From NCBI GenBank assembly GCA_016795155.1, contig JAEUIE010000033.1, positions 1 to 64,000 on the forward strand: DNA of 64,000 bases, read 5' to 3'. Below the pieces are notes generated by a model. The model was not told the DNA's origin, ran no database searches, and worked only from the letters and a program-made list of their open reading frames with translations. The DNA is from Planctomycetia bacterium (lineage in GTDB: Bacteria; Planctomycetota; Planctomycetia; Gemmatales; HRBIN36). The translations under genes were made by a program, and so were the position numbers. This document shows, one piece after another, positions 8,314-61,164 of the stretch; the stretch's first letter is position 1; every line of letters starts with the position of its first letter.

Positions 8314-8328
8314 CCTTGAACAGCTTGG

Positions 8329-8533
8329 GTGCCATGCTCACCCCCAAGGTGAACTTGGTAAGTGTGATTTGACACGGTATCCAAATTCACCATGCCCGCC
8401 TTGAGGGCGGGCATGGCACTTTGGCCTGTGAACCGTGGCCGGGTGCCCTGGTTTGGTCGTACTCGACCTAACCAGGACGGAACCATCCTGTACCCCGGCA
8501 TCGTTAGCCGGAGTACCGGCAAACGATGGCAAC
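8329..8533. repeat. hairpin array including a double-hairpin TACT/AGTA repeat
   Basis: Several stems lie in 200 nt without a gene. GTGCCATGC (8329-8337) pairs with GCATGGCAC (8411-8419). Inside that, CCAAG/CTTGG (8344-8358) and CCATGCCCGCC (8390-8400)/GGCGGGCATGG (8406-8416) form local hairpins. Then come CCTGGTTTGGTCG (8447-8459), loop TACT and CGACCTAACCAGG (8464-8476), and GGCATCGTTAGCCGG (8497-8511), loop AGTA and CCGGCAAACGATGGC (8516-8530). The last two hairpins repeat the architecture seen at 59381-59484, including the internal mismatches. Confidence 0.75.
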
Positions 8534-8675
8534 TGTGCGAAACACCATCGGCTCCCGCAACCCAACTGCCAGGGAGTATTCGTAAAGCTTGTCTGTCAAC
8601 AGCGTAGGGTGTACGAAGTTGGTCATGCGGGATCGCTCCAGAGCGGAGGTGCCTTGGGTGGGCTTGTTTGGGATG

Positions 8676-57806: not shown

Positions 57807-59366
57807 ATGGATGAAGTCCGCAGGCAAGACACTATGTCAATTTCCTATGAGATATCCGGACGCAGACATTGGGCTTATCCCATACAACTTCAGACGCGAA
57901 CAGCCTGGTGGCAGTTGGCACCGGTGCAGTGCGGATTCCTGATAGTGTGGTCGTTGCTGTTGTTCGTATATGGCATCCATCAGGGTGATCTCTACCGCAC
58001 GGAAGGCTTGCGTGCTGTGCTCGGTGCAGAAATGTACCGCACAGGCGACTGGGTGATTCCCCGTTTGTATGGCGAGTCGATCCTCACCAAGCCGCCAATG
58101 CTCTATTGGGCCATCGCACTCACGGGACAACTGTATGGCGAAGTAACCGTCTGGGCGACTCGCTTACCCGCTGCCTTTGCCGGCATGCTCGCAGTACTCG
58201 TCGTCTGGGCTGTATTTCGACGATATTACTCGCCATCCATTACACTGCTGGCTGCTTTGGCACTCCCCTGTACCGGCATGTGGCTCGAAAAGGCATCGAG
58301 TGCCGAGATTGATACTCTGCTCATTTTCTGGGTACTGGCCGCCTGGGCCTGCTTTATACGACTGATGGAAGTCTTGTCGCAGAAGCAATCTTCATACCAG
58401 CAACTCTTCTGGTGGTGCGCTGCATTGCTCTGTGTTGCCGGTGGCGTACTCACCAAGTGGACAGGATTTCTGTTCTTCTATGCCATGGCTATTCCCTGCC
58501 TGTTCTGGCACCGGCAATTCTGGCGACTCTTCCACTGGCATCATCTGCTTGCTGCCTTGCTGGGTGTTGCAGTGGTATTCAGCTGGCTCGGCTTGGTGAT
58601 CAACGAACTGGGTTGGTCGCAAGTTACAAGCATGTTGTGGAAAGAAGGCGCACCCCGTGTGCTGCATGGACAGAATGCCAGCCGAACGTTGGTTCTGGAA
58701 ACGTTGGCTCATCCATTTCTGGTGCTGGCTATCTGCCTGCCTTGGCCCATCTTCCTGGTTCATGCCTGGCGAAGGAAACTGTATCACCGTGATGCTAAGG
58801 TGCCTGTAACGATGCAAGTGATGATCGACCGCTCCCTCTGGTGTTGGGCATTGGCAGGCACCTTGATGATGACCTTCTTTCCAGACCACAACATCAGGCA
58901 GAGTTTTTCACTGGTTCCCGCCTGGACACTGTTGGGTGTGCTGGCACTTTGCCGACTCTTCCAGGCTGCTGCACTGCCATCCTGGATGCAGCAGAAACCA
59001 TTACGCGCACTGATGCTGGCCCTGGCTGTCTGGTGTGTGATCAAAATCGTTCACGTTGAAGTGCTGATTCCCGCTCGATTTGCCAAAAGGCCTTCACTCG
59101 ATGAACAAGCATTCAAACTCCAGCAGGCCATTCCGATTACTGCAACACTCTACATCTCAAAACTCAAAGATGAATGCCTGATGTTTCACTATGGCAGAGA
59201 AGTCATCAGGCTGCGAGAGTGGGATGGCATAATACCTACATATTGCTTGCTAACCGCCGCAGAATGTGCCAGTTGGCCTACAGAATTAGCTTCCCAAATA
59301 AAGCATGAAACACCTCTCCTTAATGCTCAATGCGAACCGATCTTCTTGGTACAACTGGCACGGTAA
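57807..59366 (+). CDS. GT39-type membrane glycosyltransferase (ArnT/PMT-like)
   Basis: 519 residues with about ten membrane helices. The first loop has GDLYRTEGLRAVLGAEMYRTGDWVIPRLYGESILTKPPMLYW, the pattern of ArnT/PMT-family glycosyltransferases, with an acidic residue in YRTE and the TKPPMLYW motif. These enzymes move sugars from polyprenyl phosphate donors to proteins or lipid A. The start may be ATG 57807 or 57834. A lipid A role would fit the LPS operon upstream but is inference. Confidence 0.85.
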   Translation: MDEVRRQDTMSISYEISGRRHWAYPIQLQTRTAWWQLAPVQCGFLIVWSLLLFVYGIHQGDLYRTEGLRAVLGAEMYRTGDWVIPRLYGESILTKPPMLYWAIALTGQLYGEVTVWATRLPAAFAGMLAVLVVWAVFRRYYSPSITLLAALALPCTGMWLEKASSAEIDTLLIFWVLAAWACFIRLMEVLSQKQSSYQQLFWWCAALLCVAGGVLTKWTGFLFFYAMAIPCLFWHRQFWRLFHWHHLLAALLGVAVVFSWLGLVINELGWSQVTSMLWKEGAPRVLHGQNASRTLVLETLAHPFLVLAICLPWPIFLVHAWRRKLYHRDAKVPVTMQVMIDRSLWCWALAGTLMMTFFPDHNIRQSFSLVPAWTLLGVLALCRLFQAAALPSWMQQKPLRALMLALAVWCVIKIVHVEVLIPARFAKRPSLDEQAFKLQQAIPITATLYISKLKDECLMFHYGREVIRLREWDGIIPTYCLLTAAECASWPTELASQIKHETPLLNAQCEPIFLVQLAR

Positions 59367-59380
59367 CTATTGACACTCGA

Positions 59381-59484
59381 GATGGGTGCCACGGTTTCGT
59401 CGTACTCGACGTAACCGTGCAGCGTAAACGTGGCAGACAACTTGGCATTGTTACGCTGAGTACAGCGAAACAATGGCACCCATC
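59381..59484. repeat. double-hairpin palindromic element, best copy
   Basis: Outer arms GATGGGTGCCA (59381-59391) and TGGCACCCATC (59474-59484) are exact reverse complements. Inside, CACGGTTTCGTCG (59390-59402), loop TACT, CGACGTAACCGTG (59407-59419) forms hairpin 1. TTGGCATTGTTACGCTG, loop AGTA (59459-59462), CAGCGAAACAATGGCA forms hairpin 2. Loops are complementary to each other and each stem has one conserved T-T or A-A mismatch. It fills the space between the GT39 and ECF sigma genes. Confidence 0.85.
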
Positions 59485-59520: not shown

Positions 59521-61164
59521 TTACTTCTCAGGCACCGTCGCTACGGCATCAGGCTTATTCCCCGTACGCCAGACCGTGACTGCCACCTGCTTCAAATCTT
59601 TTCGTTGCACCTTCAACATCACGTAGGGATAGTTTTTGTAATTCCATTTCTCAGACTCTGGTGGCTTGCCATCATAGTTGAGCAGAAGGTGGGCTACTCC
59701 ATTCTTATCGGGTGCAATCCAGCATTTCTCCAACGGAGACAATGTCACGCAGTTGGTTGGCTCCAGCACTGTCACCACCAGCATGGCTTCCTTGTTCCAG
59801 TCGATTTGAAACATGCTCCCATCCCACGATGGATCTCGCATCACCTGCACATTGGGTGGAAATTCCACCTTCGGAGCTTTCTCGGTACAATCCCGAAATT
59901 CCTGTTCACACAAAATAAGACTGACCAGCAGCGTCTTCCCATCAAACTGCTGCTTGACTGGCCGAGGCAGCAAGGGAACCATGCCAATCTGCATACTTCC
60001 CGACGAGGAAACAACATTCTTTGCCAGCGTAGTACGTTCACTGGCAGAGGGAACCCGATCAGCAGGCGGCACGGGAATTTCAGGTAGAGTGTACGGAGCA
60101 CCTTTGCCTTGCTGCGGTGAATTCGCCAACTGCTGAGGCATGGGTATCTCCGCATTTTGTCTTGGCGGGGGTGGGGCCTGCGTCGGTATATCGTTGGAAT
60201 CTACTTGTTGCTGCTGCTGACTTTGCCCCTGCTGAGTTGCCTGTCTCCAGGGCGAAATCTCTGGAACTGTAGCAGCAGTTGGAGACGCAGCTGAAATGTT
60301 GTTTTCTGTTACCGAAGCTACTATCGGCTGCACCTTGGCCAGATGATAGCCCGAAGCAAGAGCCCACCAGCCTACCCCTCCAGCAAGCAATGCACCCGCC
60401 AGCAACGATGAAATAATCCAGCCAATCGGTTTCCGGGTCGTCAGCAAAGTTGCAATCACGGGTGAAACAGCTGTTGCAGTCGATGCACCCGATTGCAGCA
60501 ACCCGACTGCCTGACGGGCAATCTCTGGTGCCAGGCGGTTAATCATCACACCACTCACCTGGGTACCCATGAGGACGGCACCACCTGCAGTTCCATGCTG
60601 TAGCAGTTGTTTCTTCAATTTTAACCTGGCTCGGTAGAGTAGCCCATGAACAGCAGCAGGGGACTGGTTCAAGTGCAAAGCTGCCTCATCACGCGAAAGC
60701 CCTTGAATCAGGCATAGATCAATGACCGATTGATATTCAGGTGACAGGAATCTCTTCTCTTCCTGCCACCATCCTTTTAATAACTCTTCTCTGCAGGCAG
60801 CCGATGGTTGTCGGGAAATCTGAGCCAGTTTCTCTCTTCGTTTGCGTTGCTGCATGGCTAATCTCCGCGCTAACCGACGGGCAACACCTACCAGCCAGCC
60901 TGCAACACTGTCAGGCTTCCTGAGCTGGGCTGCACGCTGGGCCAATAGCAAGAACGTTGCCTGCAGCACATCTTCTGCATCAGCAGGCTCCATCAATTCT
61001 CTTTGGCATTGCCGCCAGACGAGAGTGCCATGCCGACGCACCAGCGTTTCAAACGCACTGGATGATCTTTGTTGAACAAACTGTTGCAAGAGTGCACCAT
61101 CAGAAACTGAATCCAATTCAGTCTGATACTGTACACGACGAAGAATATTGCCCCATGCTGCCAT
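59521..61164 (-). CDS. ECF sigma factor with membrane anchor and extracytoplasmic C-terminal extension
   Basis: 547 residues. Sigma-70 region 2 spans 35-105 (ADAEDVLQATFLLLAQRA, SVAGWLVGVARRLARRLA) and region 4 spans 135-190 (GLSRDEAALHLNQSPAAVHGLLYRARLKLKK). A helix at 247-270 (GWIISSLLAGALLAGGVGWWAL) anchors it. Beyond the helix is a Gln/Pro-rich linker (about 310-360) and a C-terminal domain with FPPNVQVMRDPSWDG. It resembles planctomycete ECF factors that carry fused sensor regions in place of a separate anti-sigma factor. Targets unknown. Confidence 0.9.
   Translation of the reverse strand: MAAWGNILRRVQYQTELDSVSDGALLQQFVQQRSSSAFETLVRRHGTLVWRQCQRELMEPADAEDVLQATFLLLAQRAAQLRKPDSVAGWLVGVARRLARRLAMQQRKRREKLAQISRQPSAACREELLKGWWQEEKRFLSPEYQSVIDLCLIQGLSRDEAALHLNQSPAAVHGLLYRARLKLKKQLLQHGTAGGAVLMGTQVSGVMINRLAPEIARQAVGLLQSGASTATAVSPVIATLLTTRKPIGWIISSLLAGALLAGGVGWWALASGYHLAKVQPIVASVTENNISAASPTAATVPEISPWRQATQQGQSQQQQQVDSNDIPTQAPPPPRQNAEIPMPQQLANSPQQGKGAPYTLPEIPVPPADRVPSASERTTLAKNVVSSSGSMQIGMVPLLPRPVKQQFDGKTLLVSLILCEQEFRDCTEKAPKVEFPPNVQVMRDPSWDGSMFQIDWNKEAMLVVTVLEPTNCVTLSPLEKCWIAPDKNGVAHLLLNYDGKPPESEKWNYKNYPYVMLKVQRKDLKQVAVTVWRTGNKPDAVATVPEK

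Follow-up and report, generated by a model that had tools for sequence, protein, structure and literature searches.

The element at positions 59381-59484 of the window (the whole 64,000-nucleotide stretch of planctomycete DNA analysed here) is almost certainly a REPIN, in which two inverted REP units form a non-autonomous derivative of a RAYT (REP-associated tyrosine transposase) element. Most of what is known of REP elements comes from proteobacteria. The initial annotation saw in the element its best candidate for something undescribed. This holds at the level of the family, which is new and has an altered recognition tag, but not at the level of the kind, REP/REPIN, which is already known. 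The assignment as a RAYT-mobilised REP/REPIN follows from a RAYT gene on another contig (C44), which lies between inverted units of the same family, and from internally deleted relatives on a further contig (C10).

Structure of the Doublets

The element has the boundaries first given for it, with 11-bp outer arms (GATGGGTGCCA/TGGCACCCATC) enclosing two hairpins. The arms consist of two inverted tags plus a few adjacent bases. Each unit is 36 nt long. Its tag, GGGTGC, is followed by a stem of 7 bp and then 5 bp, which is interrupted by a T·T mismatch and capped by the loop TACT. The fixed mismatches and loops that had been noticed in both hairpins are real, but the second hairpin is not a different one: TACT/AGTA and T·T/A·A are the two strands of a single unit, and hairpin 2 is therefore of the same type as unit 1, in inverted orientation. 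A second doublet, first placed at 8441-8533, is present and has the same build, but its outer arms are degraded, with no 11-bp arm and with the tag on the right altered to AGTTGC. The features of the two loci are as follows.

59384-59419, plus strand: REP unit 1, tag GGGTGC at 59384-59389 (covariance model, 58.4 bits)
59390-59419, plus strand: hairpin of REP unit 1, CACGGTT T CGTCG TACT CGACG T AACCGTG
59420-59445, no strand: doublet spacer, 26 nt
59446-59481, minus strand: REP unit 2, inverted, GGGTGC + CATTGTT T CGCTG TACT CAGCG T AACAATG in the minus-strand reading (56.4 bits)
59381-59484, no strand: whole REPIN, an inverted doublet with tags outward, between convergent genes
57807-59366, plus strand: left neighbour, mannosyltransferase-like (PF13231)
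59521-61164, minus strand: right neighbour, sigma-70 family factor
8441-8476, plus strand: second doublet, REP unit 1, GGGTGC + CCTGGTT T GGTCG TACT CGACC T AACCAGG (58.7 bits)
8477-8498, no strand: second-doublet spacer, 22 nt, starting with ACGGAAC
8499-8534, minus strand: second doublet, REP unit 2, tag AGTTGC + CATCGTT T GCCGG TACT CCGGC T AACGATG (50.7 bits)

Each of the four hairpins has 12 of its 13 stem positions paired (7 bp + mismatch + 5 bp, closed by the 4-nt loop), and their folding z-scores range from -4.9 to -8.3. A scan of the 64-kb window found these four alone as TACT-loop hairpins of unit size. The spacer at 59420-59445 has ends like those of subfamily copies on contigs C48 and C3, while its middle and length are variable (26-64 nt). 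The ACGGAAC with which the other spacer starts also opens the sequence inside the hairpin of the decayed RAYT elements on C10.

Just before the second doublet, at 8327-8419, the window contains two more tagged hairpins in inverted orientation (GGGTGCCATGCTCACC... and ...GGCGGGCATGGCAC). This pair resembles the repeats around a RAYT gene on contig C22 (TGCCATGCCCACC/GGTGGGCATGG), which indicates that two REP families lie side by side.

Copy Number, Arrangement and Placement

The genome to which the window belongs is 5.28 Mb in 68 contigs. The tag and core, allowing at most one mismatch, match 59 genome sites, compared with none for a reversed control pattern, and the covariance model gives 67 matches at E <= 0.01. 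The pattern, the covariance model, pairing and the RAYT-adjacent units together bring the total to about 85 units, so the two loci seen at first, which might have been the only copies, belong to a sizeable family.

All 12 compact inverted doublets have their tags outward, in (+,-) order. Their spacers measure 11-64 nt and are exactly 22 nt in half of the cases (6 of 12). The units beyond these doublets are mostly singles, chiefly of a subfamily with a GCGTG stem. This is the commonest subfamily, and its singles occupy the middle of an imperfect palindrome that measures about 107 bp and has CTAAGT...ACTTAG as its ends (examples are loci L002, L008 and L042).

The units are mostly extragenic: 4 of 25 tested fall in open reading frames of at least 150 aa, against 86% of random nearby positions. 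When the covariance model was run on 102 genomes of the order, matches were confined to the genome studied here, to G002, a member of the same family with two copies, and, weakly, to G037. The copies in G002 have the T·T mismatch and the TACT loop on new stems. The same-family genomes all represent other genera, and only this one of them has copies (two units). The family to which the window doublets belong is thus lineage-specific.

The location of the 59381 element between convergent genes, and the strength of its hairpins on both strands, are what might be expected if the doublet were mainly an RNA or transcription element, acting as a two-way terminator or as a protector of mRNA 3' ends, with its spread being incidental. 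Known REPs can take on terminator or mRNA-protecting roles. However, convergent gene pairs are not the sole setting, since units lie between genes in every orientation, and no T-run follows the 59381 doublet on either strand. Furthermore, a fixed T·T mismatch, tag and loop would be of no help to termination, and a RAYT gene is flanked by units of this very kind. Such a main role is highly unlikely, and the REPIN reading is retained.

Covariation and Fixed Positions

Among 52 distinct units, 96% of stem cells are paired, and both sides have changed at 9 of the 12 stem pairs. Double-changed (compensatory) cells number 124, against 38.4 +/- 4.6 in shuffled alignments; sliding the partners left no more than 12. 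The compensatory change, and the selection on structure that had been read from two loci, are thereby borne out across the genome.

The T·T mismatch is kept in 77 of 78 units and the tag GGGTGC (that is, GTGC) in 69 of 78. The initial searches had demanded the mismatch and the loop, and each was freed in turn as a check. Searching by tag and loop with the mismatch free gave 53 sites, 51 of which have T at the mismatch position. With the loop free, all sites had TACT or differed from it by a single base, mostly the last. Stems that drift with compensation around a constant tag, mismatch and loop are the signature of a folded strand that a protein would recognise.

Strong covariation could also be the mark of a family of structured non-coding or cis-regulatory RNAs whose loops are conserved, and in which TACT and AGTA possibly form kissing loops, and the initial annotation had considered both an RNA role and such loop-loop pairing. 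The loop contact was rejected. TACT reads as AGTA on the opposite strand, so that complementary loops arise automatically, indeed trivially, in any inverted pair, and single units predominate in the family. No evidence for an RNA role emerged: an Rfam search of the window gave no family over its gathering score, the strand of the units relative to genes is not fixed, and we know of no T·T-specific role in RNA. An RNA family is therefore very improbable, more so than a terminator or mRNA protector, and recognition of a folded strand by a RAYT is the preferred explanation.

RAYT Genes and Their Flanking Units

The genome encodes several RAYTs. A search for such a gene had been proposed at the outset, and it yielded one with hairpins of the family on both flanks.

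C44:144214-144798, minus strand: intact RAYT gene, with inverted units of the window family directly on both sides
C44:144154 (plus strand) and C44:144851 (minus strand): the units flanking this gene

The two flanking units read GGGTGC CATAGTC T GGTCG TACT CGACC T GACTATG and GGGTGC CATAGCT T GCGTG TACT CACGC T AGCTATG. In these, the pairs adjacent to the mismatch also differ, with compensation, while the T·T itself is unchanged.

The protein encoded between them scores 70.2 bits (E 1.7e-19) against the NCBIfam model NF047646 (REP_Tyr_transpos), whose curated cut-off is 80 bits, falls under the Pfam Y1_Tnp cut-off, and forms a long, poorly placed branch in the tree. The HxH motif is conserved, and a tyrosine aligns to Tyr115 of E. 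coli TnpA-REP (4ER8), to which the similarity is remote (E 1e-8). Two paralogues, on contigs C32 and C5, exceed the NF047646 cut-off with 91.1 and 92.5 bits, respectively. Against the IS200/IS605 model transpos_IS200 (cut-off 55 bits), the C32 RAYT scores 25.8 bits and the C44 RAYT has no match.

On either side of the C32 RAYT lies a complete REPIN that belongs to a sister family (L037 1306-1395 and 2030-2122), with a GTGG tag, a T-G mismatch one position further out, and the same TACT loop as in the window family. A further TACT-loop family, GTGTGG CAGGGTTATTCGG TACT CCGAATGACCCTG, recurs at 8 or more genomic sites (L137-L144, e.g., C8:104584 and C5:145113). A different RAYT, on contig C5, has the canonical W-Q...D-H-x-x-R region, and its flanks are unrelated hairpins (AATCGTGACCCAC/GTGGGATACGATT; L091 1359 and 2232).

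Integron integrases and IS200/IS605 transposases also use folded single-strand sites with extrahelical bases, as discussed in PMC8266576, but the notion that the units are attC-like or other recombination sites of such an enzyme is extremely improbable, given that the gene between cognate units is a RAYT and that the units form dispersed doublets and singles with no cassette array.

Decayed RAYT Elements

Besides the intact locus, the genome contains internally deleted RAYT elements on C10.

L256 484-893 and 2388-2749 (C10:56983-59249): RAYT elements with internal deletions, nested, with GCACGGGTGCC/GGCACCCGTGC at their ends

One internally deleted element on C10 spans GCACGGGTGCC to GGCACCCGTGC. 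At a distance of 2 kb lies a second copy, which has 176 bp in common with it at 99.4% identity but a different left flank, and a third copy starts inside the second. The sharp left ends at different flanks are as expected of mobile sequences. The unit and the ACGGAAC of these copies closely resemble the window doublet at 8441, and a series from complete RAYT element through internally deleted element to compact doublet emerges. The decay intermediates connect the complete RAYT element with the small doublets. In themselves, the nested C10 elements document, in a natural setting, the change of a RAYT element into small non-autonomous forms.

Proposed Mechanism

The probable mover of the units is the C44 RAYT, a putative small single-strand DNA transposase. 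The unit strand bearing TACT and T·T would fold into a hairpin when single-stranded, for example at a replication fork. The RAYT may then recognise the GTGC tag at the 5' foot, the T·T mismatch and the TACT loop, cut the strand by its HUH/Tyr site, and carry the single-stranded unit or doublet to new, mainly extragenic, sites. Binding and cutting specific to single strands are predicted for the cognate RAYT from its HxH motif and tyrosine and from its homology to 4ER8. Binding and cleavage by the RAYT, its choice of strand and any activity today are inferred for this putative RAYT/REP pair.

RAYT Loci and Tags across Planctomycetes

A profile of the RAYTs of this genome retrieved 80 RAYT loci, nearly all of them planctomycete, and 77 of these had enough flanking sequence. 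Inverted repeats bound 70 of the 77, compared with 0 of 77 in the control. The bounding repeats are mostly GGGTG[CG]CA plus a hairpin, with GTGG or GTGC at the canonical GT[AG]G position. The tags on the two sides of a locus are concordant in 43 loci and outright discordant in 6. A tag could be assigned to 71 loci, 41 with GTGC and 30 with GTGG, and at least 10 changes between the two are placed on the RAYT tree.

Position 28 of the RAYT is arginine in 40 of 41 GTGC loci and in 10 of 30 GTGG loci, a link for which there are five phylogenetically independent pairs (3.6 for, 0.4 against), too few for significance. Residue 37 (Ser/Thr) also goes with the tag base (L176-L255), and is likewise not significant when phylogeny is allowed for. 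These two residues are a lead as candidate determinants of tag specificity. The TACT loop is also found at RAYTs of other genomes in the order (L101 and L102). That it might be general to the RAYT clade was rejected by a census of 4-nt hairpin loops at the 80 loci, where CAAG occurred at 15 loci and AGTA/TACT at 3.

It is conceivable, if somewhat doubtful at present, that planctomycete RAYTs form a large GTGS-recognising clade with repeated switches between GTGG and GTGC, that the GTGC-reading RAYT of the window family reads tag, T·T and TACT together, and that tag specificity is set by few positions, with Arg28 of the C44 RAYT as the candidate. The split of the 71 tag-assigned loci between GTGC and GTGG opens the choice of tag by RAYTs to direct tests.

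Comparison with Known Systems

The window element matches a REPIN in all tested respects save the last base of the tag, by which it departs from the strict canonical definition. The canonical REP tag is GT[AG]G at the foot of the stem (PMC6006769, PMC3733652), and the published variants, namely GTAG, GYAG, GYRG, GTRG, GTMG and GTGG, all end in G (PMC2817692, PMC3733652). A class of REPs tagged with GTGC was not found in a full-text literature search with REP terms (subscription papers lay outside its scope). A single planctomycete genome combines several RAYTs and several REP families with a non-canonical GTGC tag.

With the REPINs and BIMEs (Bertels & Rainey 2011, PMC3116915; PMC6006769), the window family shares an inverted pair of tagged hairpins, a short spacer, dispersal between genes, and a RAYT bounded by its own units. 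It differs from them in the GTGC tag, in having both the mismatch and the tetraloop fixed, and in having only 12 compact doublets, other units being mostly single. Similar to the GTAG REPs with their RAYTs (Nunvar 2010, PMC2817692; Di Nocera 2013, PMC3733652), it has an imperfect palindrome with a tetranucleotide at its 5' foot, two inverted REPs flanking a RAYT, and compensatory stem changes. Its tag, however, ends in C, while GTGG is the tag of its sister families in this genome.

RAYT-like genes accompanied by inverted repeats without a canonical tag are known from the TIRtrons and from the REP-like repeats of TnpA-Y1 subclass 2.6 and class 3, the last of which is mainly planctomycete (PMC3733652, PMC6006769). 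In contrast to these, the window family has a tag at the canonical position with one base changed, and a strong hairpin. The C44 RAYT resembles E. coli TnpA-REP (PDB 4ER8) as an HxH and tyrosine enzyme. In the E. coli REP pair the stem mismatch is read, while in group-3 pairs loop bases are read (PMC8266576); the window family differs from both in that mismatch and loop are fixed together in one REP family.
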